NCBI GenBank assembly: GCA_019163335.1
Contig: JAFLKM010000046.1
Location: 1 to 53,693 of the forward strand
Origin: Desulfobulbaceae bacterium
GTDB lineage: Bacteria > Desulfobacterota > Desulfobulbia > Desulfobulbales > Desulfocapsaceae
Reading direction: 5' to 3'
DNA length: 53,693 nt
Shown here: positions 16,129-53,693 of the stretch, piece by piece
Layout of the letters: each line of letters opens with the position of its first letter
How positions within the stretch are numbered: position 1 is the stretch's first letter
The notes under the pieces: generated by a model
Databases searched by the model: none
What the model was told of the DNA's origin: nothing
Seen by the model: the letters and a program-made list of their open reading frames with translations, nothing else
Translations under genes and position numbers: made by a program

Positions 16129-16250
16129 TTCCATTTCTAAATCAAAATGTACACGAGGAGAAAAGCGAGCCGCGACGAAGCAGTACAGCGAGTACGGTGA
16201 GGAGCGGCGTAGCGCATTCGACGAAGTGAACGTTTGATTTAGAAATGGAA
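16129..16250. mobile_element. 122-bp MITE, copy 1
   Basis: The ends carry an 18-base perfect terminal inverted repeat, TTCCATTTCTAAATCAAA, and the same trinucleotide TAA lies directly outside both ends (16126-16128 and 16251-16253), as expected of a target duplication. The interior is GC-rich and has no reading frame of its own. It matches the copy at 32078 with about five differences, and its end matches the left end of the insertion sequence at 53251. It sits just upstream of ygiQ. Confidence 0.88.
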
Positions 16251-16601
16251 TAACCCATATTTTTACAAGCAAGGCAAGAAAGCCCGGATAACACTCCATT
16301 CATACCATGAACCCAACAATGGGGGACAGCAGTTTTTTTTGATTCTTCGTTCTTTTCCACGGGCCAACACCAAGAATCAACAGCACTCATTCATCCTGAC
16401 TGAGAAACCAGATCTGAAAAATTTCCGCCCAACAACAGTCCCAACTCCTAACTGCCGGGAGCCCATGCATTATAATTATCCGCAACATTCATCTATGGCA
16501 CAAACCCGCACCCTGTATTATATTTGTTGAAAAATACGGGCCTTCTCCTGCTCTCTCAGGAGAAGGTTTTTTTAGAAATCTTAACGGATACCTTTTTATT
16601 T
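16251..16601. other. spacer upstream of def
   Basis: About 350 bases with no gene. They contain TATAAT at about 16472 and TATTAT at about 16517 as possible -10 boxes, without good -35 partners, and the strong terminator hairpin described separately. Confidence 0.45.
16541..16573 (+). terminator. intrinsic terminator in the def leader
   Basis: CCTTCTCCTG (16541-16550) pairs perfectly with CAGGAGAAGG (16557-16566) around a 6-base loop and is followed by seven T. It ends 28 bases before the def ATG, with no plus-strand gene upstream for 2.8 kb. It therefore terminates either a short RNA or the def leader itself, which would make it an attenuator. Confidence 0.8.
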
Positions 16602-17126
16602 ATGACCATTCGGACAATTTTAGAATTCCCCGACCCCATCCTTCGTCAGCAGGCAAAACCGATTACTGATTTCAATGCCGGCCTTGAAGAACTGGTCAAG
16701 GACATGACCGAGACCATGTATGACGCCCCCGGCATCGGGCTTGCCGCGCCCCAGGTGGGCGAATCCATCCAGTTGATCATTGTCGATGTGAGTAAAATTG
16801 AGCATGCTCAAAAGACCCTGGCCATGATCAATCCTCGCATAATCGGCCACGAAGGACACCAGGTCGACGAAGAAGGCTGCCTGAGCGTCGTGGATCTGAC
16901 GGCCAACGTCAAACGTTTCAAAAAAGTCACGGTGTCATTTCAGAACCTTGCCGGAGAGGCAAAGGAAATCACCGCTGAAGACCGCTTTGCCGTTGTCCTT
17001 CAGCATGAAATTGATCATCTGAACGGCATCCTCTTTATTGATCATCTAAGCATGTTGAAACGCGCCCTGTACAAAAAAAAGGTCCATAAGATGCTGGCCG
17101 AAAAAGAAATCCCAGCCGAGGCATAG
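16602..17126 (+). CDS. def: peptide deformylase
   Basis: Fe2+/Zn2+ metallo-hydrolase that removes the formyl group from nascent N-formylmethionine. All three family motifs are present: GIGLAAPQVG (motif 1), EEGCLSV (motif 2, metal-ligand Cys) and QHEIDHLNG (motif 3, HExxH). From the ATG at 16602 the product has 174 residues, the usual length. A longer frame from 16524 would run through the terminator hairpin and is rejected. The RBS is weak. The stop is 2 bases before fmt, giving the classic def-fmt pair that runs the formylation cycle. Confidence 0.97.
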   Translation: MTIRTILEFPDPILRQQAKPITDFNAGLEELVKDMTETMYDAPGIGLAAPQVGESIQLIIVDVSKIEHAQKTLAMINPRIIGHEGHQVDEEGCLSVVDLTANVKRFKKVTVSFQNLAGEAKEITAEDRFAVVLQHEIDHLNGILFIDHLSMLKRALYKKKVHKMLAEKEIPAEA

Positions 17127-17128
17127 AG

Positions 17129-18079
17129 ATGCCAAACAAGAGATTTCGCATCATCTTCATGGGCACGCCCGACTTTGCCGTACCGGCCTTGCACAAACTG
17201 CTGAATGGACCCGATCAGGTCGTCGCCGTCATCACCCAGCCTGATCGCCCCAAGGGCCGAGGGAAAAAGCTGAGTTCGCCCCCGGTGAAGCTGGCAGCAG
17301 AGCAGGCCGGCATTCCGGTACTGCAGCCGGCCAAGATCCGCACGGAGGAGTTTCTCGACACACTCAAGGGTTACAACCCGGATTTGATTGTCGTTGCCGC
17401 CTATGGCCGCATCCTTCCCAGCAGCATTCTCGCACTTCCCCCTTTAGGCTGCATCAACATCCATGGGTCGCTTTTGCCCAGACACAGGGGGGCCGCCCCC
17501 ATCCAGTGGGCCATCATCAATGGTGACAGCGAGGCGGGCGTCACTATCATGCAGATGGATGCAGACATGGATACCGGTGACATCCTGCTGTCGGCAGCCA
17601 TTCCGCTCACCGATGACGAAACAGCAGGCAGCCTTTTTGACAAACTTGCCGATCTGGGAGGAACCACCTTGGCCCAGGCCCTTGACCTGCTTCGGCTAGA
17701 TCAGCTTTTCCCCATTGAGCAGAACCATGACCTGGCCACCTCTTCCCCACCACTGTCCAAAGAGGATGGCTGCCTTAACTGGAACAAGCCTGCCCTTGAA
17801 CTGCATCGTCTGATTCGCGGCCTTGACCCCTGGCCTGCGGCCTACAGCTTTATCGACGGCCAGCGTTTCCGGCTTTTTGCACCGGAGCTTGTCCACAGAG
17901 AATGCGAACGCCCTGCCGGCACCCTTATTCTGGCCGACCAGCAGGGCCTGCTCATCGCCACCGCGAAAGACTGTCTGCAGATCAAAGAGATCCAGCCGGA
18001 GGGAAAAAAACGGATGACGGTTGAGGCCTACCTCTGCGGCCACCCCCTGACACCAGGCCTCATCCTCACCAGCCAATAG
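17129..18079 (+). CDS. fmt: methionyl-tRNA formyltransferase
   Basis: Transfers a formyl group from 10-formyltetrahydrofolate to initiator Met-tRNA. The 316 residues carry the N-terminal Rossmann-like domain (FMGTPDFAVPAL), the folate-site signature INIHGSLLPRHRGAAPIQWAI near 110-130 with catalytic Asn/His, DTGDILL near 147, and a C-terminal tRNA-binding OB domain. It begins 2 bases after def and is surely co-translated with it. larC follows 76 bases later. Confidence 0.98.
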   Translation: MPNKRFRIIFMGTPDFAVPALHKLLNGPDQVVAVITQPDRPKGRGKKLSSPPVKLAAEQAGIPVLQPAKIRTEEFLDTLKGYNPDLIVVAAYGRILPSSILALPPLGCINIHGSLLPRHRGAAPIQWAIINGDSEAGVTIMQMDADMDTGDILLSAAIPLTDDETAGSLFDKLADLGGTTLAQALDLLRLDQLFPIEQNHDLATSSPPLSKEDGCLNWNKPALELHRLIRGLDPWPAAYSFIDGQRFRLFAPELVHRECERPAGTLILADQQGLLIATAKDCLQIKEIQPEGKKRMTVEAYLCGHPLTPGLILTSQ

Positions 18080-18155
18080 AGATCCGGCTCTTTGATTCAG
18101 TGGAGAAATCCTCCCCCCACTCCAACTCCAACTCCAGCTAAACTCACAAAAAACC

Positions 18156-19352
18156 ATGAAGATTGCCTACACCGACTGTTTTTCCGGCATCAGCGGAGAC
18201 ATGTTTCTGGCCGCCCTGCTCGATGCAGGCCTTGACGAACATCTTCTCCGCCAGGAACTGGACAAACTCGATATCGGCCCCTTTCTTCTCACCATCTCCA
18301 CCACCAGACCCTCCGGCATGAAAGCGACCAAGGTCGAGATCAGCGCCGGGGCCAATCAGCAGTTTCGCAACCTTGCCGCCATTCTTGACATCCTGCACGC
18401 CAGCACCCTTCTGCCAGCCATCGTTGACCGGGCAAGCACAGTATTCCAAAATCTGGCCGAAGCCGAAGCCAAGGTTCATGGCTTGCCCGTGGACGCCATC
18501 CACTTTCATGAAATCGGGGCAATCGACACCATCATCGACGTGGTGGGGGTTGTGGCCGGTCTCCATCACCTGGGAATAGATCGCCTGGTCAGCTCACCAC
18601 TGCCCTGGGGACAGGGCTTTATCGACTGCGACCATGGCCGTCTGCCACTGCCCGCCCCCGCCGTCTGTGAGCTGCTGGCTGGCATACCGGTGTACGCGGT
18701 GGATATATCTCAAGAACTGGTCACTCCAACCGGAGCAGCCCTGCTCACCAGCCTCTGTCAAAATTTCGGGCCACTGCCGAACATGACCATCGCCAGCACC
18801 AGCTATGGCGCCGGGAGTCACAAGCTTGCCAACCGACAGCCCAACCTGCTCCGCCTGATCATTGGCGAAGAAACAACCCAGTGCAAAGAGGCCCGAAGCG
18901 TTGAAGTCATCGAGACCCACCTTGACGACTGGAACAGCGAAGGCTTTCCCTATCTCTGTGAACTCCTGCTGAAACAAGGGGCCCTCGATGTCAGCCTGAC
19001 CCCGATGCTGATGAAGAAAGGACGGCCCGGTCAGCTGCTGCGCGTCATCTGCCACCCGGCCCAAGGGGTGCCGCTAAAACAGACCATCCTGACGGAGACC
19101 ACAGCCATTGGCCTGCGCTTTCGCACCGAATCCCGCCTGACCCTCCAACGGGAACAAGTGCTGGTGGACACTCCCTGGGGAGAGATTGTCGCCAAGAAGG
19201 TCCATACGCCGGCCGGCCCAAGGATCTATCCGGAGTATGAGGCATGCCGACAAATAGCCGAGTCCGCGCAGGTTCCGCTGCAGGCGGTGTACAATGCAGT
19301 TACTGGAGCTCGGAAGGAAGCAGACGGAAGGCAGAAATCAGACGACAGATGA
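18156..19352 (+). CDS. larC: LarC, nickel-pincer cofactor biosynthesis protein
   Basis: CTP-dependent nickel insertase (former DUF111) that puts nickel into the pyridinium dithiocarboxylic acid mononucleotide cofactor of lactate racemase-type enzymes. The 398 residues match from the N-terminal YTDCFSGISGDMFLAALLDAG through VHFHEIGAIDTIIDV and the PTGAAL segment to the C-terminal nickel-binding region (MLMKKGRPGQLLRV). No larA, larB or larE lies in the window, so the client enzyme is either elsewhere or a different LarA homologue. It sits in the def-fmt-larC-pgpA run; 101 bases separate it from pgpA. Confidence 0.94.
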   Translation: MKIAYTDCFSGISGDMFLAALLDAGLDEHLLRQELDKLDIGPFLLTISTTRPSGMKATKVEISAGANQQFRNLAAILDILHASTLLPAIVDRASTVFQNLAEAEAKVHGLPVDAIHFHEIGAIDTIIDVVGVVAGLHHLGIDRLVSSPLPWGQGFIDCDHGRLPLPAPAVCELLAGIPVYAVDISQELVTPTGAALLTSLCQNFGPLPNMTIASTSYGAGSHKLANRQPNLLRLIIGEETTQCKEARSVEVIETHLDDWNSEGFPYLCELLLKQGALDVSLTPMLMKKGRPGQLLRVICHPAQGVPLKQTILTETTAIGLRFRTESRLTLQREQVLVDTPWGEIVAKKVHTPAGPRIYPEYEACRQIAESAQVPLQAVYNAVTGARKEADGRQKSDDR

Positions 19353-19453
19353 AACACCGTTGCCCAATCCTAATGACGGCGTTAGAAGCTGAACAGCAGC
19401 TTTGCACTCCATCCATGGCGGGACTTAGGGGATAGACAAAGCAAGGAGAGAGG

Positions 19454-19906
19454 ATGGATCGTGTAATTATTGCCCTGGCGACAGGATTGTATACCGGCAG
19501 GCTGCCGATCTGCCCTGGCACCTGGGGCTCCCTTGCCGCCATTATCCCCTGGCTTTTTCTCCGCAATCTCAGTATGCCCGGCTATCTATTAATGCTGGCC
19601 CTGGTTTTCGTGCTTGGTTTTTTTGTCTCCGGCTCGGCGGAAAAAATCCTTGATCAACCCGATGCCGGCCCCATCGTTATTGACGAGTTCCTGGGCATGT
19701 TCATCACCCTGACCCTGGCCCCCGACCATTGGGCGGCATGGCTCCTGGGTTTCTTCCTGTTCCGCGCCTTCGACATCGTCAAGCCCTTTCCCTGCTCCTG
19801 GTTTGACCGCCGCATCCACGGCGGAATCGGCATCATGATGGACGATGTCGTCGCAGGCATCTACGCCCTGACCAGTCTGCAGCTTATCTGGTTGATAGTC
19901 ACATAG
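19454..19906 (+). CDS. pgpA: phosphatidylglycerophosphatase A
   Basis: Membrane enzyme that dephosphorylates phosphatidylglycerol phosphate to phosphatidylglycerol. The 150 residues contain the family motifs CPGTWGSLAA near residue 20, IDEFLGM near 77 and LFRAFDIVKPFP near 102, with about three transmembrane helices. The ATG has GGAGAG upstream. It is the last gene of the plus-strand run and is convergent with the DUF4405 gene, 62 bases apart. Confidence 0.96.
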   Translation: MDRVIIALATGLYTGRLPICPGTWGSLAAIIPWLFLRNLSMPGYLLMLALVFVLGFFVSGSAEKILDQPDAGPIVIDEFLGMFITLTLAPDHWAAWLLGFFLFRAFDIVKPFPCSWFDRRIHGGIGIMMDDVVAGIYALTSLQLIWLIVT

Positions 19907-19968
19907 TCCCGGCAAGCAGGCACCATTGAGTACCAATCTGATCCCATCTGCTTCCAGCCGGAAATCAC

Positions 19969-20811
19969 TCAGGGAGTGCGTTCAGTGGCGACACGATGGA
20001 GGATGGCAAAAAAGGCGGAAGGTTCCATTTTGGCAGCCCCGGCAATCTCGCGAATGGTCTGATCCGGCCGGGCAGGGATATTTTCCCTGGCCAGCCCCTG
20101 AATAATCCTTGCCGGCTGAAGGGTGTAGGTGGTGCAGATCTCCTGCAGGGTCTTGTTGCCGAACCCGGGCATCGGCGCATCCGGGAAGGTGAGAGCAGCA
20201 GCTTCCACCACCTTTGAGGCAGGCTTGATAATGTCAAACAGGGCCTTGGGGGTCATCTTGTTTTGGGCTGCAATGGCAGCCACGGTATCCTTCTCATCCT
20301 TCACAACAATCCCGGCCTTCCCCATAAGCTCCCTGGCCTTCACCGGATCAAGCTCGGTTTTCCGGTAAAAAGAAGCCAAGAGAGACAACTCAGCATGCCC
20401 ATAGGGCGGCTCACCATATTTTTTGGCTGCGGCATCCTTGAAAGAATGGCCAAAGTTTAGCACCAGGGACATGGGAGGAATCTTCCAGTATGTGCCAAAC
20501 CCCACCACCAGAATCAGGATCAGGGCGACATTAAAGCTGCCAGTGAAAACCTTGACCTCTCTGGCCCTGTTTTTCAGATAGGCAGCAACCGCATTCCAGT
20601 TATAGAAGAGGTGCAGCAGGCCGGCAAAGAGGAAGAGAAACCCCAGATTAATGTGCAAGTTGCCCCACTCGTTCTTGCTCAGGCCCCACAAGCGCCAATC
20701 CGCCCAATAGGCAACCCGCCCCTCCGGAACAATATAGAGGATGACGCTGGTGAGAATACAGAGGAAAAAAGAGAGCAGCATGGTCAATGAAAGGATTTTC
20801 CGGAGTGTCAT
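19969..20811 (-). CDS. DUF4405-type membrane protein with long soluble C-terminal region
   Basis: The N-terminus has three to four membrane helices (about residues 7-28, 50-67, 95-115). The second contains His residues (HINLGF, LLHLFYNW) typical of DUF4405/cytochrome b-like quinol-associated proteins, so b-type heme binding is possible but unproven. The second half (from about 130) is hydrophilic and seems to hold two or three helix-turn units (MTPKALFDII, TLQEICTTY, TIREIAGAA). I use the ATG at 20811 (280 residues) because AAGGA lies upstream; a longer frame to 20880 lacks one. The neighbours give no functional hint. Confidence 0.78.
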   Translation of the reverse strand: MTLRKILSLTMLLSFFLCILTSVILYIVPEGRVAYWADWRLWGLSKNEWGNLHINLGFLFLFAGLLHLFYNWNAVAAYLKNRAREVKVFTGSFNVALILILVVGFGTYWKIPPMSLVLNFGHSFKDAAAKKYGEPPYGHAELSLLASFYRKTELDPVKARELMGKAGIVVKDEKDTVAAIAAQNKMTPKALFDIIKPASKVVEAAALTFPDAPMPGFGNKTLQEICTTYTLQPARIIQGLARENIPARPDQTIREIAGAAKMEPSAFFAILHRVATERTP

Positions 20812-20948
20812 GGCGTTTTCCTTGTCGGGATAAAGGGTTGGGACCCGCATAATTTGCGCAAAAAAATGCGCAAAAGACACTGTCCACTCAGTTTGTTATC
20901 AGGAGCCTGAAGTCAAAGAGTCAGAAGACAAAACCACTCCTTCAATTT

Positions 20949-23783
20949 TCAACCTATCTCCCTGTTTTTTTCCCTGTCCAGTGCCTGTCGTACCTTTTCA
21001 GCCAGCTCCTTGAGAGAAAAGGGTTTCTGGAGAAAGCTCATTTGTGCGTCCAATATTCCCTGTTCAGCCATGATGTCTGAGGTATAGCCCGACATGAACA
21101 GGATTTTGAAATGGGGATATAAGGGAACCAGCCTTTCGGTCAAATCCTGACCACTCATCTCAGGCATGACCACGTCCGTCATGAGCAGATGAATCTCAGA
21201 TGCGTGTTCGCCAGCCAATCGCATGGCCTCCTGGGCGCCGCCAGCCGACATGACCCGATAGCCAAGCGCCCCCAACATCATCGCAGTCATCTGCAAAAGG
21301 GCCGGCTCGTCTTCCACCAGCAGAATAACCTCCTGACCCTGCATCTCCGTTTTTGCTCTGTCGTCCACAAACTTCTCCTCAACAAACTCCTCCACATTCC
21401 GTGGCAGATAAATCGTGAACAGTGTTCCTTCGCCCAACACACTGGAAACTTGAATGTGGCCGTTGTTCTGACGAACAGCCCCTTCCACTGTCGCCAGGCC
21501 AAGACCGGTTCCCTGGCCGATACCCTTGGTGGTAAAGAAGGGTTCAAAAATATGGTCCAGCGTTTCTTTGTCGATACCGCAGCCGGTATCACGCACGGCA
21601 AGGCATACATACTCACCGGGTGTGATATTAGGATAATTGGCACAGAAGGCCTGGTCCAGGACAATATTCGCGGTTCTGATACCAAGCTTACCGACACCCG
21701 AGATGGCATCACGGGCATTGACACAGAGGTTGGCAAGAATTTGATCAATCTGTGAGGGATCCATCTTGACTGCCCATAGGTCTTCCGCGGGCTCCCAGCT
21801 TAACTGGATGTTCTCACCGATGAGTCGTTGCAGCATTCTGAGCATCCCTTCGACAATTTCATTCAGATTCAGCGACTTGCGGACAATAATCTGTTTACGG
21901 GCAAAGGCGAGAAGTTGCCGGGTGAGGTCGGCTGAACGAAGGGCCGCCTTCTGAATTTCCAGAAGAGACGCATAAATCGGCTGAGCCATATCCACCTGGC
22001 CCAGCGCGATATCGGTGTATCCGATAATAACCCCCAGCATATTGTTAAAATCGTGGGCCACACCACCGGCCAGACGACCCACCGACTCCATCCTCTGGGC
22101 CTGCTGAAGCTGTTTTTCCAGGGATATTTTTTCGTCCATTTCTCGACGAATGATACTGAGATCATGGAGGCTCGTAAAAATACTGGTCGGCAGTCCTTCT
22201 TGATCATAAATAATTTTTACCGTCACCTCAAGGGGGTGCCCGGAAAAAGGGTTATCTGGATGATCCGGCTCCATTATCATCTGAAAATCACGCCTTTCTT
22301 TCTGCGCGCAACAGATCGGGCAGCAGCCTGTTATCCCCAGAGGATGCATAATTTCATCCGCCGGACGGCCAACGACGGAATTCGGACTCGTGCCCATGAC
22401 CTGATAAAAGGACTTGTTGGCTCGAACGAGCCGGCACTCGAGGTCCAGCAGATAAATAATATCATCAAAGGAGTCCATGGCGGCAGACCACTCCCGAAAG
22501 GACTGCTTAAGGGCTTGTGCCGCAATTTTTCGTTCAACCAGCCTCCATACCGCATCCATAAGGAGTATCAATTCATTAATATCGCTCTGACGATAATCCT
22601 CGTCCTTGTTAGCCACACCCACCACCGCCACAACGTCCCCCTGCTGAAAGATCGGGATGGCGAGAAAATTCTGCAGCACCACATGCCCTTGGGGGCAGCC
22701 ATTTTTTGAGGGATTTTCAGCCTGATAGTCATTCACAAGGACGGGCTGCCCCAGTCGCACCGCCTCTCCCAGCAGCCCGATACGATCCAGCTGAAAACAG
22801 TTCTGCGTTCCTTCCATGGCACACTGCTGCATAACCTCCCGCGACCAGCTGACAAGAATAAGTTCACGTGTTTTTGGAACATAATTACAAATAAAACCGA
22901 TCCTGCTCCCGGTGAGAAGAAGCGCCTGTTCCAGGGCATAATCGAAAAGTTCCTGTTGACTGGCGGCCTGGAATTGAAAGATATCGGCAAGACTTTGCAA
23001 GCGCTGCTGACCGAGCAGGAGCTGTTTTTGCTTCACTGCCAGGGCGTCAAGCATTCGGTTAAACCCAGACCCAAGAGTAGCAATCTCGTCATGACCGGCG
23101 ACATCCATCCGCAAATCCCGCTGCCCCTCTTCAATCTGCCTCGAAACAGCAAGGAGCTGATTCAAGCCGACAGTCAGCCGCCTGCCGAGGAACACCGCAA
23201 AAAGTGTCCCGATGACAATGGCCAACACGGTGTAAAGAATTCCATTACGGGAAATGATCCCCAGATTATCTTCGATCGTTTTCCGACCCTGCCCTACCCT
23301 GGCCCAGCCAATCCCTGTTCCAGTGCTGGTCAGGATGGGTGCGGCAATATCGAGGAGATCCTTGTCGTCATGCAGAACCTGAAGCTCCTGCTGCTGGTCA
23401 TGGACAGCCCTGAGCAGCCGGCTTTTGGGATCGACAAGATATTGGCCAATGCGGGATTTATCGCTATGGGCCAGCACCTTACCGTCAGTGCCATGAACCA
23501 TGACATATCGAATATCCGGGTAATGCGCCACAGAGGTGACAATCTCTTCCAGCCCCACGACATCATTGGCAAGAATCCAGGAGCTGCTGTTAATGGCCAG
23601 GTTCTGGGCCAGACTTTTCGTCTGTTCGAGACTCTGTCTGCTGAGAAAATCGCGCTGCCGCATCACCAGATCAAAAACAAAACTGGTCATCAGCAACAGA
23701 TGCACAAGGGCTACTCCCCAAATTAATCGGGAGCGTATTGTTGACGGCCAGACTCTGGCAATGGTGGCAGGCAGAGAGAGCAT
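20949..23783 (-). CDS. hybrid sensor histidine kinase (HAMP-GAF-PAS-HisKA-HATPase-REC)
   Basis: Membrane sensor kinase of 944 residues. Order: TM1 about 20-42, a periplasmic sensor of about 130 residues, TM2 about 181-200, HAMP about 201-255, GAF about 265-420, PAS about 430-545, HisKA with the phospho-acceptor His577 in [12 protein letters not shown], HATPase with NARDAIS, DTGCGID and [11 protein letters not shown], and a C-terminal receiver (VEDEPALL, phospho-Asp in [13 protein letters not shown], then LQKPFS). The PAS domain carries a tight cysteine cluster CCPICC (487-492). The gene starts 18 bases after a PhnD-like lipoprotein gene on the same strand, so the lipoprotein probably feeds it. 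No separate output regulator is adjacent. Confidence 0.95.
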
Positions 23784-23801
23784 TAAGCGCCTTATGATAT
23801 T

Positions 23802-24776: not shown

Positions 24777-24873
24777 AATGCGCTACAAATTTTTCGACAT
24801 TCTTCACCCCTATGGCAGGCCGACGCCTTCTATCCACCTTTCTTCAAGCTCTGACCCCGATGCATGGGGGATG

Positions 24874-24928: not shown

Positions 24929-24975
24929 CATTCAGCACAAGCGCGCTCAATATTTATTCACGCGTCCCCCCCCCT

Positions 24976-31903: not shown

Positions 31904-32477
31904 TTGAAGAATAAACTGATCGTGCGATTCGTTCCTTTTCTTGCCTGGTTTCCGGTTTCTTGTATTATTCTGTTTAGCGATCTCATTGCCGGCATCACCA
32001 GAGCCCCATATCCCCCGCCCCCAAAGATTATGGCCTACGCCCAACGTTCCAGCCTGCCCCCTGTATTTTGGTCTTTATTCCATTTCTAAATCAAGATGTA
32101 CACGAGGAGAAACGCGAGCCGCGACGAAGCAGTACAGCGAGTAGGTGAGGAGCGGCGTAGCGCATTCGACGAAGTGAACGCTTGATGTAGAAATGGAATT
32201 ACACCGTCTTTATCCCTGCAGTAATGAATACGCTTTGGGGTTCATCCCAGCAAGCTGACCACTGGACCTGTCGCCATTCCTGGACGCCATGGAGATGGAG
32301 CCTTGCGTAACATTCAGGTCAATCCCCCCTCTGGACATCTCCACCCAGTTCACGGCCATACGTTTTGATGGCTCGCTCTATTTCGCCAACGTCACCCATT
32401 CTGAAGACGCGGTGCTGGCCGCAGTGGCTGGATCACAAAAAGGCGAAATATCTCTGTCACAGAAGATCAGGCCATAG
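31904..32477 (+). pseudogene. SulP-type anion permease remnant, interrupted by a MITE
   Basis: Pieces of a SulP (sulfate/bicarbonate) permease survive in order but not in frame. The N-terminus (31904-32077) reads DLIAGIT...MAYAQRSSLPPVFWSL, matching the first helices. After the MITE, FIPAVMNTLWGSSQQ and KLTTGPVA follow in shifted frames (32205-32270). Next comes the linker GDGALRNIQVN and then the STAS start FTAIRFDGSLYFANVTHSEDAVLAAVA, ending at 32477. Roughly 330 residues of the transmembrane domain between TGPVA and the linker are missing. The MITE supplies a stop (FHF-TAA) after the first piece. It is certainly non-functional. Confidence 0.85.
32078..32198. mobile_element. 121-bp MITE, copy 2, inside the sulP remnant
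   Basis: Same architecture and orientation as copy 1, with ends TTCCATTTCTAAATC and GTAGAAATGGAA and the trinucleotide TTA on both sides (32075-32077, 32199-32201). It differs from copy 1 by one deleted C and four substitutions, so the two are recent relatives. It lies between the first and second surviving pieces of the permease. Confidence 0.9.
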
Positions 32478-38619: not shown

Positions 38620-38624
38620 CCTGT

Positions 38625-44032: not shown

Positions 44033-44348
44033 AACACTTCCTTTACAATAAAACGGCAGACATTCTGTACAGAATGCACGGCGACATGTTTTCATGAAAA
44101 AACTGACCAAGACTCCCCTTAATCAGATCAGAACCACGACCTGAAATGTATCCTGAACTTACCGGAAGCACCAAGAATATTCAACGACAGAGACAAACAT
44201 GGCCGGATTATTGCCTCAAGACACATACCAGGATGCGACCCGATTTTGTTATCAGTCTGCTGGATGCTTCTTCGTCATCCCTGCCAGGCTTATGTAGTGC
44301 AGAGAATGGCTAAAGTCAGGGGCGGCAAAGCTCTACAGGGAGTAGGCT

Positions 44349-44380
44349 AACCCGATGAACGGGATAATCTGTAAGGCACT
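44349..44380. repeat. dispersed repeat, two-module copy
   Basis: On the minus strand AGTGCCTTACAGATTATCCC continues into GTTCATCGGGTT, joining both modules seen separately at 10383, 10442 and 37241. This is the clearest fusion of the two modules. Confidence 0.7.
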
Positions 44381-44451
44381 GAAGGAGTCCTGCAGTGCCG
44401 TCGATAAAGGCATTGATTTGAAGGCGACTTGGAATCGGCACCTTTTATTGA

Positions 44452-44478: not shown

Positions 44479-44590
44479 TTATAGAATAGAGACAAACTTT
44501 TTGATCTAACTTCTCCTCTCATTCTGTTATTATGAGTAAAAATCTGTACCGGTAAAAGTTCTTTCTCCAGGAAATCAGGAGGCACAACCC

Positions 44591-45469: not shown

Positions 45470-45799
45470 CCCGCCTGTTGCCTTAGACTCCTTGCAAACC
45501 GGTACGCCCTCACTCTTCTCATTCCAGGTTGCATTCAGCACAAGACCGGCCAGACAAGCGACCAACGACGATGCCATGCCGGGAGTTAGTTAAAGGAGGT
45601 CGCGCGGTGGAGTCGACGAAGGGATTGGTTTGCCGGCAACCTACAAATCTGTGGAGATCTTCCTTCGGGCCCTGTTCCAGCCCTTATCCCCCTCCTGTCA
45701 AACATTGCATCTGAGAAGCGTGTCGGCTATAATAAAACATTCTCGGGAAAAATTTGCGCCCACTGCCAGACAAACGGTTTCTGCACCCAAAGGAATCTC
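45470..45799. other. spacer with a strong promoter
   Basis: The 330 bases contain no gene. A near-consensus promoter is listed separately. No stable hairpin follows the peptidase stop. Confidence 0.5.
45705..45733 (+). promoter_or_regulatory. strong sigma-70 promoter
   Basis: TTGCAT (45705-45710), 17 bases, then a perfect TATAAT (45728-45733). It would begin a leader of about 60 bases before the ATG at 45800. Confidence 0.75.
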
Positions 45800-46519
45800 A
45801 TGCTCGACCTGAACACGACCCTGGCCTTTGAGGTCAAAAAGGAACTTGCGGATCGATATTTCGGGTTCCGCAAGATCATTGAAGAAGACACCAATGCCTA
45901 TCAAAAAAATGTCATCGCCTCTGCCCTGGAGTTGGAAGAAAAAATTGGCTTCGACCTTATCCGCATCTATGTTCTGTTGCAACATGATGATCTGATTCAA
46001 GATTTTTTCACGCTCACCGGCCTTGGCGAGATTCTTTTTTATGACCAGTACATCAACAAGTCCGCGACCATCAGAAAACAGATGCTGGCGGATATTCGCG
46101 TCCATGGCTTTACCCGGAAGATGCGCTTCTCTAATATGTTTTTTGAGCTTTATGAGATACTGGAACAAGATGTCATAGAGTATCGGCAACGTGTCCTGGA
46201 TCTGGCCATGGATCAGGAGACCATCAAGGAAGAGATCAACCTGTTTTACCAGAAGAATGATATCAGCGGCATCATGTTGTTTTTGCGGGGCATGGACGGC
46301 GCAACAACCGGCAGTTCCGGCCCCATGGCTGGTTCCATTGACACGGTGAGTGCCATCACCATGGAAGAAAAAATGCGTCTTCAGCCACCCCAGCCCATTG
46401 AAAAACTGCTGCCGATCCTCTCCCTGATGCCCCCTGCCAAAGAGATTCGGAAGGAGTTGAAAGAACTCGTGAATACCGCCTTTGCAAGACAACCCGAACT
46501 CGATGTCAGGAAATTATGA
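45800..46519 (+). CDS. conserved unknown protein (239 residues)
   Basis: I do not recognise the family. It has no signal peptide or membrane segment and is rich in charged helices. Residues about 20-150 contain many Phe, Tyr and Ile with heptad-like spacing (FGFRKIIEEDTNAYQKN, DLIRIYVLLQHDDLIQDFF), so a helical bundle is likely. The tail holds a Gly/Ser stretch near 170 and a Pro-rich linker (LQPPQPIEKLLPIL) before a last helix. It has its own strong promoter, AAAGGA ribosome site, and precedes a signalling protein gene by 52 bases. Confidence 0.8.
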   Translation: MLDLNTTLAFEVKKELADRYFGFRKIIEEDTNAYQKNVIASALELEEKIGFDLIRIYVLLQHDDLIQDFFTLTGLGEILFYDQYINKSATIRKQMLADIRVHGFTRKMRFSNMFFELYEILEQDVIEYRQRVLDLAMDQETIKEEINLFYQKNDISGIMLFLRGMDGATTGSSGPMAGSIDTVSAITMEEKMRLQPPQPIEKLLPILSLMPPAKEIRKELKELVNTAFARQPELDVRKL

Positions 46520-46571
46520 TCACGCCCCCCGCCAGAGCTGCCAGGGTCAAAAGAAAGATCCCTGAGATACG

Positions 46572-48305
46572 ATGGGTACCATGATGGACAAAATCCTACT
46601 GGTCGGATTAGATTCGTTAGCCACTTCCGCAGTGACTTCTGCCGCCCCGATACTGAAGGCCCAGATCTTCGAGGCCGCCGATGCGACAGAGATGGCTCAC
46701 CTTACCAGGAAGAATGAGTTTGCCCTGGTAATTCTGGATCAGAACATCGCGGCGACAATCCAGGAATTGGACAAGCAGCTGCAGGCCCTCTCCCTCTCGC
46801 CTGCAACAACACTTCTGATCATAGTCCCGTCAGATCAGAGCCCGGTAAGCTTTCATACCGGAGTGCCGGGTGGGTTTATTGATTCTCTTCCCCGCCCTCT
46901 GACGCCCGCTCTCCTGACCGGTAAAATCCGGCTCTTACTCCATATTCACCGCCTGCAGCAGGAGTTACTTTCCTGCCAAACACTTCTTCAGGATCAGCAG
47001 AACAAAAATCAGCAATGGCAGCAATCCCTGGCGCAACAAAGCCATTATCTGAATATGTTGTCCGTGCGGGACGGCCTGACCGGTCTTTTTAACCGCAGAC
47101 AACTCGGCATCACCCTTGAAGAAAATCTGCAAAAGGCCAGGCAGGAGAACACCGATCTCGCCCTGCTCCTTGTTGACATTGATTATTTCAATGAAACCAA
47201 CAGGGTCGCCGGACAGCATTTTGGGGATTCCATTCTTAACCAGTTTGCGGCACGACTCACCCAGAACAGCCGCGATGAAGATCTCTGCTTTCGCTTTGGC
47301 GGAGCGGATTTTATTGTCCTGCTTCCTGGAATGAATAAGACGGCGGCCAAGGAACAGGCAGAGATAATCCGCCTGGCCTGCTCCGAGCATCCCTTTACCA
47401 GCGGGAATCACAGTCGCACCGTAACCGTCTCCATCTCCATCGTCACCCTGCTCGACAATTGCCCCAAAGATGTGGATGAGTTTCTCACTATGGCGGACAA
47501 GGCCATGTATCAGGCCAAATCCCAGGGACGAAACCGCATCGTTGTCTATGACCTGGATCATACCGGGCAAAGCAGTAAGATCGATTCCATCTCCCTGCTC
47601 CAAGAGACGTTGCGCCGCATCCTGGAAAAGACCAAAGACAGCTCCATCGCCTCGATCCAGATCCTCACCCAAAATGTCACCGGTACCCCCCAGGATGACC
47701 ATGTCCACCTGGCCGCCCAATATATCCACCTGATCTGTGGACGCCTGGGCCTGCCTAATTCCATCCTCGAGACCTTTACCAATGCCCTGATCCTCTACAA
47801 CTGCTTCCGTTCACTGCTCTATCGGGAGCTCCTCACCAAGAAAGAGACGTTCAGCCGCGAGGAACGGAAGGTGCTCCAGGACCTCCCCTACAAACTGGCA
47901 GAGCTCACCCAGCATTTTGACTATTTCGCCAATGAGCGAACCATGCTGCTCTGTCAGGGAGAACACTATGACGGCAGCGGCTATCCGGAAGGCCTGTCAG
48001 GAGATGAGATTCCACTGGCATCAAGAATCTTCAGCCTGGCCGATTCGCTGGCCGCCATGAATGCCGACCGGCCGCACCGCAAGCGTCTCACCCCGCTCGC
48101 GATCATCGATGAGCTCCGCAAAGGGGCTGGAACGCAATGGGATCCATCGCTTGTCTTGCTGGCCCTCGACATTGTGCACGAGCAGCAGCTCATCCCCCTT
48201 GATGAAAAGCTCCTCACCCAGACCAAATTGCAGATCACCCAGCAGATTACCGGCAGCGCTTCGCAGCCCAAGTCCTCTCTCCCTCAAAAAAGTTCCCACT
48301 CCTAG
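46572..48305 (+). CDS. degenerate GGDEF / HD-GYP signalling protein
   Basis: Cyclic di-GMP-type protein of 577 residues. Order: a receiver-like N-terminal fold (about 5-120) in which the phospho-acceptor Asp pocket is poorly kept, a helical linker (125-160), a GGDEF domain (about 165-325), then an HD-GYP-like domain (about 365-560). The GGDEF active loop reads GGADF (243-247), not GG[DE]EF. In the HD-GYP part the metal dyad HD is replaced by YN (409-410), while DGSGYP (467-472) is kept. Neither catalytic activity is therefore expected. The HDOD gene starts 2 bases after its stop. Confidence 0.88.
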   Translation: MGTMMDKILLVGLDSLATSAVTSAAPILKAQIFEAADATEMAHLTRKNEFALVILDQNIAATIQELDKQLQALSLSPATTLLIIVPSDQSPVSFHTGVPGGFIDSLPRPLTPALLTGKIRLLLHIHRLQQELLSCQTLLQDQQNKNQQWQQSLAQQSHYLNMLSVRDGLTGLFNRRQLGITLEENLQKARQENTDLALLLVDIDYFNETNRVAGQHFGDSILNQFAARLTQNSRDEDLCFRFGGADFIVLLPGMNKTAAKEQAEIIRLACSEHPFTSGNHSRTVTVSISIVTLLDNCPKDVDEFLTMADKAMYQAKSQGRNRIVVYDLDHTGQSSKIDSISLLQETLRRILEKTKDSSIASIQILTQNVTGTPQDDHVHLAAQYIHLICGRLGLPNSILETFTNALILYNCFRSLLYRELLTKKETFSREERKVLQDLPYKLAELTQHFDYFANERTMLLCQGEHYDGSGYPEGLSGDEIPLASRIFSLADSLAAMNADRPHRKRLTPLAIIDELRKGAGTQWDPSLVLLALDIVHEQQLIPLDEKLLTQTKLQITQQITGSASQPKSSLPQKSSHS

Positions 48306-48306
48306 C

Positions 48307-49200
48307 ATGATGTCAGCCAACACCACCACCATTCTCAAACAGATCGACTCCTTTCCATCCCTTCCGACCACGGTCAGCCGGGTCATGGAGATTACCGGCA
48401 ACCCGGAAAGTTCGGCCAATGAACTGATGCAGGCCATCCTGCCTGATCTGGCAATGTGTGCCTCCATTCTCAAAACCGCCAACTCTGCTTTTTTTGGCAG
48501 ACCGCGCACCGTTTGTTCCATCCAGGAGGCCATTGTTGTTCTCGGCTTCCAGGAGATCCGCAATATTGTCCTGACCCAGGCAATGTTCAACTCCTTTCAG
48601 AAATTCAGAAACACCAACAAAAAAAATATCGACGCCCTCTGGCAGCACTCCCTGACTTGTGGACTGGCGGCCAGAGTCATCGCCACCCATAATCGACAAA
48701 GCAGGCACCCGCCAAGCCAGCTTTATATCGCCGGGCTCATTCATGATATCGGCAAGTTGATCATGCTTAGCGCCCTGCCCAACAGCTACAATCATGTGTT
48801 TGAGCTCGCTGAAAAATTGCGCTACTCTTTCTTCCCTGAAGAAGAGGAGACCTTCGGCATCAGCCATGATACGGCCGGCATGCGCCTCCTGAACCGCTGG
48901 CTTTTCCCCGAACAGTTCAGCTTTTCGGCCGGCTACCACCATTGCCCCGATCGTGCTCCGGAAGGGGCAACCTTCCCGTTGATCATCCAGATGGCCGATA
49001 TCCTCAGCCATATTCTGCAGTCCGGTGAGAGCCTTGACGGCAAGGAACTTCTGGAACTGATCCGTGATTTCACCCCTGCGGTCACTCAACTCTGGGGCCA
49101 TTACGACCTCAACTGGCAGGCCGAAGATATTGACATCTGGCTGAATGAACTGCGAGCCAGTCTCGAAGACGAATCCATTTTCAGTCTTTTCAACGCCTGA
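48307..49200 (+). CDS. HDOD domain signalling protein
   Basis: HDOD (HD-related output) protein of 297 residues, of a type tied to chemotaxis and c-di-GMP signalling. Features: ILKQIDSFPSLPTTVSRVMEIT at the start, LKTANSAFF near 60, GLIHDIGKLIM near 142 with an intact HD pair, and HHCPDRAP near 220. It starts at one of two consecutive ATGs (48307 or 48310), 2 bases after the degenerate GGDEF/HD-GYP stop, so translation is coupled and the two probably share a signalling task. The domain boundaries are typical. No ribosome site is needed or visible. Confidence 0.9.
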   Translation: MMSANTTTILKQIDSFPSLPTTVSRVMEITGNPESSANELMQAILPDLAMCASILKTANSAFFGRPRTVCSIQEAIVVLGFQEIRNIVLTQAMFNSFQKFRNTNKKNIDALWQHSLTCGLAARVIATHNRQSRHPPSQLYIAGLIHDIGKLIMLSALPNSYNHVFELAEKLRYSFFPEEEETFGISHDTAGMRLLNRWLFPEQFSFSAGYHHCPDRAPEGATFPLIIQMADILSHILQSGESLDGKELLELIRDFTPAVTQLWGHYDLNWQAEDIDIWLNELRASLEDESIFSLFNA

Positions 49201-49226
49201 CAGCAGCAGCTTCTACAAAAACGCCG

Positions 49227-50927
49227 ATGAAAGTCTTGCAACTCAGGCAAACCCTGCGCAGCACCCGCCGACTGGCTGAAATCCTCAAAGTTTTATCCAC
49301 ATTCGGGTTCCGGGAAGTGCTTGTTGATCTGGGACTCTCCGCTGGAACCAAAGGCAACAGGCAAGACGAAGAAAAGCCTGATCTTGCTGAACAGGCAACA
49401 ACAGCCATCCTTTCCCGTCCGGTGCGGTTGCGGCTGGTCCTTGAACAACTGGGCCCCACTTTTATCAAGCTGGGCCAGATTCTGTCCACCCGGCCGGACC
49501 TCATCCCGCCGGATTGGGCGGAAGAATTCAAACAGCTTCAGGATAACTGCCGGCAGGTCTCCTTTGATGAGATCCAGAAAGTTCTGGATGACGAGTTTCC
49601 TGGCCGCCTCACCCTTCTCTTCTCCTCCATTGAACCGGAGGCACTGGCTGCGGCCTCCATGGCCCAGGTTCATCGAGCCAGGCTGACCGATGGAAGCGAG
49701 GTGGTGATCAAGGTTCTGCGACCGGGAAACCGGCAGTTGATCGAGGAGGATATGGCACTGCTGGAAGGCATGGCCCAATTCGTCGAAGAATATTTTTCTG
49801 ATCTTGGCTACAGTCCCGTGGCTGTGGCCAAGGAATTTTCCCGGGAGATCTTCAAAGAAGTCAACCTGATCCACGAAGGACAATCCACAGAGCGGCTACG
49901 TCGTTATTTTCAGGATGACCCCAACATCTGCTTCCCCAAAGTGTACTGGGAGGCAAGTACCAGAAACATCCTGACCCTGGAAGAAATCCACGGCCGTCTG
50001 CTCTCCACCCTGACCCCGGCCCAATTAAGCGCTGATACCCGCCGTGCCATTGTTGCCAATAGCACCGACGCCATCTTCAAGCAGTGCCTGCGTTTTGGTT
50101 TCTTCCATGCCGACCCTCATCCCGGAAATATTTTTCTGCTGCCCGGCGACAAGCTCTGTTTTATCGATTGCGGGATGACCGGTCAACTGGACCGAAAAAC
50201 CACCGACCACCTGATTGATCTGGTGGCAGGTGTCACCACTGGAAATATTGAAAAATTATGCCGCGTGACCATCGATCTGACCGATATCGATCCGGCCCTC
50301 ACCGAAGGACGGGAATTTCGTTCCGACCTCCAACTCTTCACCACCCACTTTCAAGAGTCAGACCTGCAGCATCTGGATATCACCAAACTGCTGTCAGATT
50401 TCTTTGACATGCTCCAACACTATCATGTGCACTGCCCCAGCGACCTGCTTTTTCTGGTTAAGGCCCTGACCACCATCGAGGGAGTCGCCGAGCAGTTCGA
50501 TCCGCAATTTGATGTCCTGGCCCATGTGGAACCGCAGATACGGGAGATTGTCACCAAACGTTACGGCTTTGCGGCAATGCGCCAACGGATTGAGAAAAGC
50601 ATAGGCAACTATCTGACCCTTCTTGAAAACCTGCCCCTGGACATCCAGCGCTTCCTTGACCAGTTCCGATATAATCAGTTCACCCTCAACCTGGAGATGA
50701 AACGCCTGGATCATCTGGCGGAAAAAATGGATAGCTCCAGCCGGCTGATGGGGATCTCCATGATCATCTCGGCACTGATCGTCGGTTCCGCCATCCTTAT
50801 TCTTGCGGACCGGATATCAGGAGCCCCAGGCATCCTGGGCACCCTGGGCGTTATCGGACTGATCATGGCGGGAATCTACTCGGCGGGATTTGTGGCGGCC
50901 TTTCTCTGGCCAAAGAAACGGAAGTGA
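49227..50927 (+). CDS. UbiB/ABC1 family atypical kinase
   Basis: Membrane-anchored ABC1 kinase-like ATPase, usually linked to ubiquinone or menaquinone metabolism and lipid homeostasis. The 566 residues contain the KxGQ-type FIKLGQILSTRPDLIP near 80, the A-rich loop AAASMAQVHRA near 137, LEEIHG, the catalytic-type HADPHPGNIF near 292 and FIDCGMTG near 312, then a helical part and two C-terminal helices (ISMIISALIVGSAILIL, GVIGLIMAGIYSAGF) as anchors. In an anaerobe the quinone would be menaquinone. It follows the HDOD gene by 26 bases. Confidence 0.94.
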   Translation: MKVLQLRQTLRSTRRLAEILKVLSTFGFREVLVDLGLSAGTKGNRQDEEKPDLAEQATTAILSRPVRLRLVLEQLGPTFIKLGQILSTRPDLIPPDWAEEFKQLQDNCRQVSFDEIQKVLDDEFPGRLTLLFSSIEPEALAAASMAQVHRARLTDGSEVVIKVLRPGNRQLIEEDMALLEGMAQFVEEYFSDLGYSPVAVAKEFSREIFKEVNLIHEGQSTERLRRYFQDDPNICFPKVYWEASTRNILTLEEIHGRLLSTLTPAQLSADTRRAIVANSTDAIFKQCLRFGFFHADPHPGNIFLLPGDKLCFIDCGMTGQLDRKTTDHLIDLVAGVTTGNIEKLCRVTIDLTDIDPALTEGREFRSDLQLFTTHFQESDLQHLDITKLLSDFFDMLQHYHVHCPSDLLFLVKALTTIEGVAEQFDPQFDVLAHVEPQIREIVTKRYGFAAMRQRIEKSIGNYLTLLENLPLDIQRFLDQFRYNQFTLNLEMKRLDHLAEKMDSSSRLMGISMIISALIVGSAILILADRISGAPGILGTLGVIGLIMAGIYSAGFVAAFLWPKKRK

Positions 50928-51018
50928 CGAATACGCGGAAGGAGTGGAGCTGAAGACTATTGTTTTATAGCAGAAAACAAGAAAATAATTTGCAAGAGCA
51001 TTAAGTTGCGGGATATTT

Positions 51019-51063
51019 CAGAATAAAGCATCCATCCCCTCCCGGGGTGGATGCTTTATTCTG
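51019..51063. terminator. bidirectional hairpin between ubiB-like and chemoreceptor genes
   Basis: CAGAATAAAGCATCCA (51019-51034) pairs with TGGATGCTTTATTCTG (51048-51063); an inner CCCC/GGGG continues the stem. It lies between two convergent genes. There is an A-run on the plus side (T-run on the minus side only before the stem), so it serves as a junction hairpin more than a textbook terminator. A worn repeat arm (AAGAAAATAATTTGCAAGAG) lies just upstream at about 50980. Confidence 0.65.
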
Positions 51064-51089
51064 AAAAAACTCCGGTGTAAAATCCTTGA

Positions 51090-52757
51090 TCAAACCTTGA
51101 ATTTCTTGACAAGATTTTCGAGCTGGACGGCCAGGTCGGCCAAGCCTTGCGCGCTTACTTGCACGTGGCTGCTCCCTTCTCCCACCTGATTTGATTGCTG
51201 GTTGATGCCGGCAATGTCGCGAGTGATATCGGAAATAACGACCGTGCTCTGTGCTACATTTTCGTTGACCTCGGCAATACCCTGAGAAGCTTGGGAGATG
51301 TTGGTGGCAATCTCTTTGGAAGCCGCCGATTGTTCTTCAACGGCAGTGGCTATGCCGTTGATAACGTTGTTGATCTCAACAATCACCTCGGAAATCTTTT
51401 CAATATCTTCCACGGTTGTGGAGGTTGTTATTTGCATCTCGTTGATCTGATTTTTAATATCAACGGTAGCGGCGGCGGTCTGGCGAGCCAGTTCCTTGAT
51501 CTCGTTTGCCACAACTGCAAATCCTTTTCCCGCTTCTCCGGCTCTTGCGGCTTCAATGGTTGCATTTAAGGCAAGCAGGTTTGTTTGTTCCGAAATCTCG
51601 GTGATGGTCTCGGTAACTCTGCCAATCTTCCGGGCTGAATCACCAAGTATAGCCATTTTCTCGGAAGCAACCCGTGACTGCTGGACAGCGCCCTCAGAGA
51701 TGGCGCGAGCTTTTTCCGCACTCTGAGCAATCTCATTGACGGTGGATGTCATTTCCTCGGTGGCCGAGGCGACCATGTTGACATTGCATGAGGATTGCTC
51801 CATCGCCGCTGATACTGACTGGATATTAACGCTCATCTCTTCAGTGGCCGCAGCAACCGAAGCGGATTGATCCGCTGTGTCCTGGGCAGTGGAGGATAAC
51901 TGTTTGGAAATCGAAGCCAAATCGTTAGACGAGAAGGTGAGACGGCTGGCGTTGTTGATGATATCCTTGATCATGGCACCTAACTGTTCAACCATTGAAT
52001 TGAGCGATTTAGCCATCACCCCGATCTCATCCTCCTGATTGATGTCGATCTTGGTGGTGAAGTCTCCGCCGGCCATGGCCTCAGCCAGGGCAGAAGCCTT
52101 ACCCACAGGGGTAGTGATAGAACGAATGATCACGATTGACAGGACTACACTTAGGATCAGGGCCATGGCCAGCAGGGCGCCGATGATTATCTTCCCGGTG
52201 CCGCTGAGATTGGCCGCCTGTTGCCCGAGTTCATCGGCCATCTTTTTTTGCAAGGTGATAAATTCACCGACGCCTTCCATGTAGTTTCTCTGAGATGTTC
52301 GGACCTCGTGCAGCAGCATTTTTTTGGCCGATTCTGTCTTCATCTCCTTAATCAACACCATATAGGCCTCAGAGTCCTTGACGTAGATTGCCCGCAGATC
52401 AGTCATTTTCTTTAACAGAGCGCCCTCCTCGCTGCCTTTGACGATGACTTTTTCCAACTGTTCGAGAATATCAGCGACTGCCTTGCGGGATTTGGCAATC
52501 CGCGGCATCTCCTCACTCTGCGCCTGCATGTCGTCATCAATGATAATATTGCGCAAGCCCCTGGCGATGATATTGAGGTTATCGTTGATTTGATGCCCCA
52601 GATCAATCTGCGCCATGTTGTCGGTGATGAGCAGATTAATCTCTTCATGGAGCGAGTTGATTAACTTCAGTGAATAGCCTCCCACAATCATCATCAACAG
52701 CATGATGAGCCCAAACCCAAAGCTTAATCGCGATCCAATCTTAAAATTTTTCAGCAT
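51090..52757 (-). CDS. methyl-accepting chemotaxis protein
   Basis: Membrane chemoreceptor of 555 residues. Order: TM1 about 14-34, periplasmic four-helix sensor (about 35-190; repeated heptads, [16 protein letters not shown]-type segment), TM2 about 190-212, HAMP about 213-268, and cytoplasmic signalling coiled coil. The hairpin tip is [21 protein letters not shown], the CheA/CheW-binding signature. The C-terminus ends without a pentapeptide tether. It is a stand-alone gene; no che genes are in the window. Start AAAGGAG upstream. Confidence 0.96.
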
Positions 52758-53250
52758 TGAGACACTCCTTTGTAAAATTGTATAGAAATCACTTCATTCA
52801 TCATTGATATGTGTAATGTAATACCAGATAGCTTGCATCGAAAAAAGCGTATTAACCTTACAATTGAGCACCTTCAGGTTTTCCATGCAGAAGTCAAAGT
52901 ATTTCCAAACACACTATTTTTTGTTACGTATAAAAAATAGGAGATATCAGTTTTTGTTTTGGTTCAGCGTGAATTGGAATTTTTATTCGCTTATGATAAA
53001 CAATCACGAACGGAGAACAGTCTATGCGAAAGAAACGTTAGAACCACAACACAGAAGAAAAAGTGCCCATTTTGCGGCGTCACCTGGTCGTATCCGACCT
53101 ATGTGATGAGCAACAGCTTCTCCGTTAGATAATCCTTTTTAGATGACCAACCGGGCGGCCCGCCTGGGAACGACATTGCCGCAATTCTCTTATAGCAAAT
53201 AGCATGCCTCTCCAAAATTTTGAACAAACCTGTATGATTCAGGCATCTTA
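52758..53250. other. decayed AT-rich spacer left of the insertion sequence
   Basis: The 493 bases hold no complete gene. A short frame ending at 53132 encodes KKKCPFCGVTWSYPTY, a possible zinc-ribbon fragment, one base out of phase with an upstream frame beginning near 52993. This suggests a small frameshifted remnant, at low confidence. Confidence 0.3.
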
Positions 53251-53693
53251 TTCCATTTCTAAATCAAATATGCTATAACGACCTCACCCAACTGGAGGTG
53301 AGACTATGGCACGAACAGCAAGTGGCAAAGATGTCCTCGAAAAAGCAAAAGATTGTTTGTCAAAAGCAAAAACCGCTGAAGAGTTGAGGCAGGCACAAAC
53401 AGTTGTTCTTCCTTTAGAATATGGTTTTTCTATTGAGCAAACGGCTGCAATAACTGGAATTTCAGTGAGATGGGCGAGCCATCTTCGCATTGAGTTTATT
53501 CGTTCTGATGGCTCGCCCAAGAAGTTGCCTAAAGGTGGTCGCCGTCGTGAAAATTTAACGCCTGCCGAAGAGGCCAATTTTCTTGCTCCTTTTTTAGAAA
53601 AGGCGAAAGAAGGCGGCATATTGATTGTCGGTGAAATCAAAGAAGCTCTGGATATGCGACTTGGGCGCAAGGTTTCACTGGCTTCAGTTTACA
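53251..53693 (+). mobile_element. left end of an IS630-like insertion sequence
   Basis: The left terminus TTCCATTTCTAAATCAAA at 53251 is identical to the ends of the two MITEs and is preceded by TTA, as in MITE copy 2. The transposase gene begins 55 bases in. The right end is outside the window. Confidence 0.85.
53306..53693 (+). CDS. IS630-like transposase, N-terminal part (truncated by window edge)
   Basis: DDE-type transposase of which 129 codons lie in the window. The N-terminal part has helix-turn-helix patterns (YGFSIEQTAAITGISVRWAS near 40-60), a basic GGRRREN linker, and a second winged-helix-like segment (GGILIVGEIKEALDMRLGRKV) ending at LASVY. The ATG has GGAGGTG 5 bases upstream. 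The catalytic DDE residues would lie beyond the window. Assignment to the IS630 family rests on the two-HTH layout and general appearance. It is the best candidate to mobilise the two MITEs. Confidence 0.85.
   Translation, partial: MARTASGKDVLEKAKDCLSKAKTAEELRQAQTVVLPLEYGFSIEQTAAITGISVRWASHLRIEFIRSDGSPKKLPKGGRRRENLTPAEEANFLAPFLEKAKEGGILIVGEIKEALDMRLGRKVSLASVY

Follow-up and report, generated by a model that had tools for sequence, protein, structure and literature searches.

A shared 18-bp end points to an IS630-like transposase with a TNA target as the probable mover of small elements in a Desulfobulbaceae genome, whose common core appears to fold

Two miniature inverted-repeat transposable elements (MITEs) and a truncated insertion sequence (IS) begin with nearly the same 18 bases on one contig of a Desulfobulbaceae bacterium, raising the questions of whether the IS supplies the enzyme that moves the MITEs and what part the sequence between the MITE ends plays. 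The window, i.e. the whole stretch of DNA analyzed, is the entire contig JAFLKM010000046.1 (C17; 53,693 nucleotides); it terminates inside the IS, and the right end of this IS copy lies outside the data. An earlier note on this DNA had both MITEs and the IS beginning with one 18-bp end or a one-base variant of it, and both small elements closing with its inverse; its coordinates are correct, with TTCCATTTCTAAATCAAA exact at 16129-16146 (+), 16233-16250 (-) and 53251-53268 (+), with 1 mismatch at 32078-32095 (+), and with 2 mismatches at 32181-32198 (-). These 5 matches at ≤3 mismatches compare with 0.04 expected in the window, and none of 100 shuffles reaches 5. The reading we favor, at a probability of roughly 0.8, is that the MITEs would be moved in trans by IS630-like transposases at TNA sites, and that a separate folding core, common to different ends, would aid the spread of the elements through its fold. 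The features of the window on which this reading draws are the following:

16129..16250, + strand: MITE copy 1, 122 bp, with 18-bp terminal inverted repeats and a TAA duplication at 16126-16128 and 16251-16253
16151..16230, + strand: structured core of MITE copy 1, scoring 100.7 bits with the covariance model R1, which was built on an alignment containing a MITE from contig C26 identical to this copy
32078..32198, + strand: MITE copy 2, 121 bp, with a TTA duplication at 32075-32077 and 32199-32201, and an empty site with a single TTA in another genome (L324 in G003)
32100..32178, + strand: structured core of MITE copy 2, 86.9 bits with R1
53251..53693, + strand: left portion of an insertion sequence of IS630-like type, truncated where the contig stops, with TTA at 53248-53250 on its left flank
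53306..53692, + strand: N-terminal part of the transposase (the helix-turn-helix half), 129 residues, open at the contig end

The MITEs would be non-autonomous: acting in trans, the transposase of IS630-like elements with the same ends would excise them and integrate them at TNA with a 3-bp duplication, and the window IS would be one copy of their partner. We infer both that this transposase is the mover and that it works by cut-and-paste.

Within its own genome (3.2 Mb, 103 contigs) the exact 18-mer occurs 5 times, and at ≤3 mismatches it occurs 53 times against 5 for a reversed-pattern control. BLAST with MITE copy 1 returns 30 matches in this genome, and both ends are kept in 20; the ends of these copies face each other about 122 bp apart, inside the 100-150 bp spacing that the earlier note had anticipated, their mean pairwise identity is 0.905, and the 3-bp flanks are identical in 14 of the 20. 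The window copies are thus MITEs by their structure, being short elements (122 and 121 bp) with 18-bp terminal inverted repeats and a target site duplication, with no transposase of their own and with ends common to an autonomous element of which no complete copy is assembled. Window copy 1 is identical in sequence to the copy on C26, and no match to it was found in plasmids. Two MITEs near contig ends (L025 on C84 and L032 on C56) are cut at nearly one core position by a start resembling TC[AC]A/CTAGTGTCCCAACGTTT, probably the end of another IS.

The earlier note had taken the MITEs for a non-autonomous family mobilized by the IS, and the right ends of the IS bear on this directly. Three further contigs (C26, C37 and C51) terminate in a matching right end; there, TTCCATTTCTAAATCTAA stands inverted, one mismatch from the left 18-mer. 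The right-end stretch of C51 translates into a transposase C-terminus followed by a stop, and 28 of 43 residues match the IS630 relative L084 (the translation compared differs by one residue). At positions 1-180 of C26 (L006, L052) the IS right end adjoins a MITE, with a single TTA common to both. Right ends indicate at least three IS copies, and an additional, diverged left end lies on C64. With the 18-mer on both sides of MITEs and IS alike, sequence comparison supports the earlier note on the link as well as on the class of element; since the MITE ends are the same as those of a full-size IS, the MITEs probably borrow its enzyme. A second end type, TTCTAAGTTGCATTCAA, stands alone in two variants at 9 contig ends of this genome. 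We take one variant for the left end and the other for the right end of a second IS, fitting a second MITE type, because a complete element elsewhere (L341 in G090) bears the same variants left and right with TTA on both sides; the interior of the second IS was not found, the available sequence being some 50 bp from either end where contigs stop. With two IS end pairs and the same MITE core, one core therefore seems to be carried between the ends of two sibling IS types here.

The window frame of 129 residues matches HTH_23 and HTH_29 below their cut-offs and aligns with IS630 relatives; it has relatives at 18 loci in Chlorobiaceae, Nevskia, Syntrophaceae and other metagenome-assembled genomes (MAGs); named relatives are in a Desulfocapsa MAG and an uncultured Desulfobulbaceae MAG, and further relatives are in 5 plasmid records from Paraburkholderia, Caballeronia and Polaromonas. 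The N-terminal frame of the Nevskia relative L084 stops and the catalytic half goes on in another frame, and two Caballeronia copies are annotated as two genes; the junction in four relatives is a run of 7-8 A and then C, which would be compatible with -1 frameshifting at A AAA AAC. Against the NCBIfam IS630 transposase model NF033545 (cut-off 100) the catalytic half of L084 reaches 133.4 bits, and against DDE_3 83.5 bits; its second D and its E are separated by 32 residues. An IS630-type transposase with a DDE domain is therefore present in L084, while the window holds the N-terminal 129 residues only, below the Pfam cut-offs. The 2-bp TA duplication is absent, both IS and MITEs having 3-bp TNA instead, and for this reason we call the element IS630-like rather than a canonical IS630 member. 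A short inverted repeat, ACCTCACCCAACTGGAGGTGAG, was seen by eye in the IS at window 53281-53304, upstream of the transposase start, which it might hide in the transcript. Of 27 further loci with DDE_3 in the genus, 25 were tried, and by the criteria used none of these showed a pair of ends of TTC/TNA type, several being cut by contig ends.

The TNA duplication is seen most clearly when the ends are set by the terminal inverted repeats alone. Among 78 distinct MITEs counted this way (orthologous insertions in several genomes being counted separately), 3-bp flanks are identical in 56, whereas a match at 2 bp occurs in 1 and at 4-8 bp in none; the left flank has T in 71 and A in 77, and the right flank has T in 75 and A in 73. 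The flanks TCA/TCA (6 MITEs) and TGA/TGA (2) contain no TA at all. A different count, 72 of 92, was set aside because the choice of ends in it rewarded identity of the target site duplication. For the IS, TNA precedes 39 of 40 distinct ends (the two ends of the C26 MITE being left out), and where both ends were found independently of the duplication, flanks match in 6 of 7 elements, three of them on finished plasmids; the mismatched one is L087 (TTA/TAA). A further 25 transposase loci gave both TTC-type ends in 9, with identical TNA in 8 of the 9 under a ranking that favored TNA and identity; the remaining 16 gave no accepted end pair, and the loci closest to the window protein are among these.

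Related genomes preserve many of these sites without the element. When the joined flanks of 13 MITE sites from this genome were searched in 17 genomes of the genus, at least 9 of the 13 were contiguous, i.e. empty, in G003 or G005; 5 of these 9 keep the same TNA once, including the site of window copy 2, and 4 have diverged at that place. No clean empty site is present in G003 for window copy 1, the flanks of which are not contiguous there, and the sites L009, L018 and L024 were not spanned among the matches listed. That the family is active, as the earlier note had it, is favored only indirectly, by the identical window and C26 copies and by these empty sites; no movement was observed. Previously studied IS630 elements, as far as the source describes them, insert at TA and duplicate 2 bp (PMC2170065). 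Literature searched at title and abstract level gave no report of a TNA duplication for an IS630 element, and the TNA target would look like a new variant within an IS630-like clade as far as that search reaches; how strictly the IS630/Tc1/mariner group keeps to TA is a question that such a 3-bp duplication by an IS630-like transposase touches on.

What lies between the ends of a MITE is generally regarded as passive filler. Here the IS region and the MITE match over 21 bp, at the ends only, and among 23 loci that contain pieces of IS or DDE_3 the core model detects only the MITE next to the IS end on C26; by these comparisons the interior, a core of about 80 bp, is a separate module and not a shrunken IS. 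BLAST with the MITE gives a match in 17 of 17 genomes of the genus, often over query positions 29-101 only, and the flanks of the core are then other ends: TTCTAAGTTGCATTCAA, TTCCAAAAAGCATTCAA, TTCCAAGAAGC, TTCCAGCAAGC and TTCCAATTCGC (end-type names used here are our own). The covariance model finds the core in 25 of 93 genomes of the family (22 after discounting doubtful matches) and in 47 of 257 genomes of the order, spread over 19 of 69 genera and eight families, 40 of the 47 at E <= 1e-9; more end types surround the core among these order-wide loci. Three of 23 loci inspected (L255 in G087, L256 in G031 and L257 in G017; 30-36 bits) were rejected, as they resemble another structured repeat, whose end lies near TTTTTACGAGTCCAT, and 25/93 and 47/257 are therefore upper bounds. 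At Rfam gathering scores the window matches only tRNA, and six core-bearing loci searched at E <= 1 gave 4 matches, all below gathering scores; one exact pattern gave 0 matches to the core in viral contigs. Two further, degraded copies lie in the window:

45544..45625, + strand: degraded core copy with a left end of TTCCAGGTTGCATTCA type, R1 25.5 bits, E 3e-6
44298..44413, + strand: doubtful degraded, interrupted core copy with a right end of TTCCAAGTCGCCTTCAA type at 44418-44434, R1 18.3 bits, E 0.001

A short repeat like CCCGATgAACGGGATAA, at window 44350-44366 and in the flanks of L027, L088 and L137, recurs beside or inside several elements. Longer cores with extra hairpin-like inserts occur in L166, L170, L179, L184, L186, L188, L168, L178 (G009) and L228 (G002), e.g. 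with GTGGGTGGGCGTAGACCC on the left, or AAGCATGGACGCTT and TCGCAC..GTGCGA on the right; one left insert sits with TIR1-type ends (TIR, terminal inverted repeat; L188) and with TIR4-type ends, which suggests exchange of parts between elements. In L219 (G009:C70) the left end is of TTCCAAAAAGCATT type, the right end is of TIR1 type and the flanks differ (TCA/TTA), as would result from recombination or deletion between two MITEs. By eye, one insertion site appears to be shared by L104 (G004), L119 (G008) and L154 (G015), two of the genomes having a TIR1-type element there and the third one of TTCCAAAAAGCATT type, either through independent insertions at one TAA or through exchange in place.

Might such a core persist without a role of its own? 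It would do so if a few MITE ancestors had been passed around, with an interior that changes more slowly than ends tracking a transposase, and with pairing left behind by quasi-palindrome repair, one hairpin arm serving as template for the other. The core is only slightly less similar between copies of different end types than between copies of one type: copies with the same end type have a core identity of 0.824 and an end identity of 0.936, and across 3,751 copy pairs with different end types the core identity is 0.787 and the end identity 0.620, the latter low partly by definition, a point in favor of a core without a role. End types change 17 times on a tree of the cores (minimum 11; 45 with shuffled labels), so that a core mostly keeps its ends, apart from some exchange or parallel change, as passive inheritance would also have it; this tree rests on about 80 columns and is weak, and 10 of its 118 cores had no end type and were left out of the count.

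The core could fold into a rod of short helices and purine-rich internal loops. Alignment A1 holds 47 copies less than 95% alike, drawn from 92 with good ends, and unguided RNAalifold on it gives 20 pairs, 13 of them within the core. The counts use the minimum-energy structure of a single copy, L121, and controls in which it is slid therefore flatter it. In alignment A2 (44 of the 47 copies; L230, L223 and L227 left out) 92.3% of cells pair, both sides have changed in 106 cells (shuffles, 41.8), and covariation scores 0.319 versus 0.165 shuffled and ≤0.045 slid. Changes were also counted on the tree of 118 unique cores with near-full model coverage, the parsimony figures coming from two of ten tie-breaks. 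On internal branches partner columns change together in 16-18% of changes, versus 1.5-1.6% for non-partner columns; on terminal branches the values are 8-9% and 4.5-4.7%. Compensations stand against breaks at 7-9 versus 14-17 on internal branches and 12 versus 105-107 on terminal branches (Fisher p 0.002-0.017 over ten tie-breaks). A parsimony run that preferred standard pairs at ties, with 16 internal double changes, was replaced by runs without that preference, which gave the 7-9. We read this as single copies decaying after insertion, with the multiplying lineages keeping the fold better. Because pairing is kept better on branches that leave descendants than on terminal ones, the fold would aid the spread of the element and not the host.

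The near-free decay of pairing on terminal branches, where G-U (45) and A-C (46) arise about equally often, also fits a core without a role, and templated repair would likewise produce double changes. Arm-templated repair should, however, erase the mismatches of internal loops, but these loops are conserved to roughly the same degree as the stems, with 1.3 internal-branch changes per column against 1.4 for paired columns (apical loop, 7.2). We regard a role-free core as rather unlikely, though it is the alternative that survives best.

A fold of benefit to the host, an RNA attenuator, stabilizer or RNase III site selected when co-transcribed with host genes, as proposed for BOX and NEMIS, is a distinctly less probable alternative. 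Folding z-scores for 50 of the 118 cores, chosen at random, are in keeping with it: the plus strand beats its shuffles under RNA energies (mean z -2.29, 26 of 50 below -2), whereas the minus strand does not (-0.29, 2 of 50). Gene context, taken from the 78 copies with long flanks and crude calls of open reading frames (ORFs), places 75 of the 78 outside called ORFs, a point in its favor, but shows no orientation bias relative to neighboring genes (75 same, 67 opposite), which counts against RNA. So does the comparison of G-U with A-C on internal branches (14 versus 10 and 12 in two runs), G-U being hardly favored. Single copies decay freely and their sites are empty in relatives, neither of which suits an element kept for the host. 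No consensus promoter was found in 15900-16500.

That a different transposase moves the MITEs, their ends resembling those of the IS by coincidence or convergence, is very improbable, for although the genome has no complete assembled IS copy and core and transposase show only a weak association among genomes of the order, MITEs and IS share the 18-bp identity on both sides and the TNA flank preference, and a second MITE type is paired with a second IS end type in the same genome.

Several observations nonetheless weigh against movement by the IS630-like transposase and a fold that aids spread. DDE_3 gives 0 matches in the genome's own assembly, leaving the partner IS without a complete assembled copy, and the IS interiors would accordingly have been lost in assembly. 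The N-terminal transposase profile (25 of 257 order genomes at E <= 1e-12) matches only 8 of the 47 core genomes, 4.6 being expected if the two were independent, so that core and partner barely co-occur in these draft genomes; IS interiors missing from draft assemblies may explain this. Flanks do not match in 22 of the 78 MITEs and in 2 of 16 IS with both ends. The two A2 measures least inflated by relatedness are also the weaker ones, with 11 pairs showing a double change versus 7.9 (reached by 5 of 500 shuffles) and 30 further pair types versus 27.4 (reached by 42 of 500), and it is for this reason that changes were counted on the tree; there, breaks outnumber compensations on internal branches too. 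Finally, DNA energies give the core no folding advantage over its shuffles on either strand (mean z 0.33 for plus and 0.62 for minus).

On balance we hold to trans movement at TNA by IS630-like transposases, with a core whose fold aids spread. A bolder version, which we put forward tentatively and with less than even confidence, would make the core a selfish, RNA-like structured rod with conserved purine internal loops, persisting across the order by swapping terminal repeats among TNA-targeting IS630-like transposases, its fold promoting proliferation. The same title-and-abstract search gave no report of a covarying MITE core common to different end types, and an order-wide structured core with varying ends would, as far as that search reaches, look like something new. 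A core that recurs with different ends in eight families, and whose pairs covary, makes the effect of a MITE interior on its own spread directly testable; the TNA target and the core together are of specialist interest.

Among known systems, the RUP elements of Streptococcus pneumoniae come close: RUP is about 107 bp long and intergenic, its ends are like those of an IS630-type IS of the same genome (IS630-Spn1), and movement in trans has been proposed (PMC2229807, PMC3049150). Compared by description, the two differ in that insertion at TA is reported for RUP and TNA is duplicated here, and one core common to different end types is not mentioned in the parts of the RUP descriptions drawn on (PMC2229807, PMC3049150). 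Correia/NEMIS elements of Neisseria are likewise small, with terminal repeats and a target site duplication, and their transcripts fold into long stem-loops in Neisseria; as described, their termini carry TA (PMC2229807). IS630/Tc1/mariner elements such as ISY100 have a helix-turn-helix and DDE transposase, in line with the IS630 model matched here, and in the account consulted they duplicate 2-bp TA, unlike the 3-bp TNA of this clade (PMC2170065). The transposase of this clade also differs in occupying two reading frames, with an A-run at the junction that would fit -1 frameshifting. BOX elements (S. pneumoniae, S. suis) offer the nearest parallel for the core, as they are modular, with two kinds of ends around the same boxB modules in S. 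suis, and are predicted to form a folded RNA; organisms, size and layout differ, the end similarity proposed for BOX is with ISSpn2, and the comparison, within what the source sets out, concerns the way of working only (PMC3049150). By analogy, then, there are known precedents both for MITEs that would be moved by IS630 elements, in RUP, and for a module common to different ends, in BOX.

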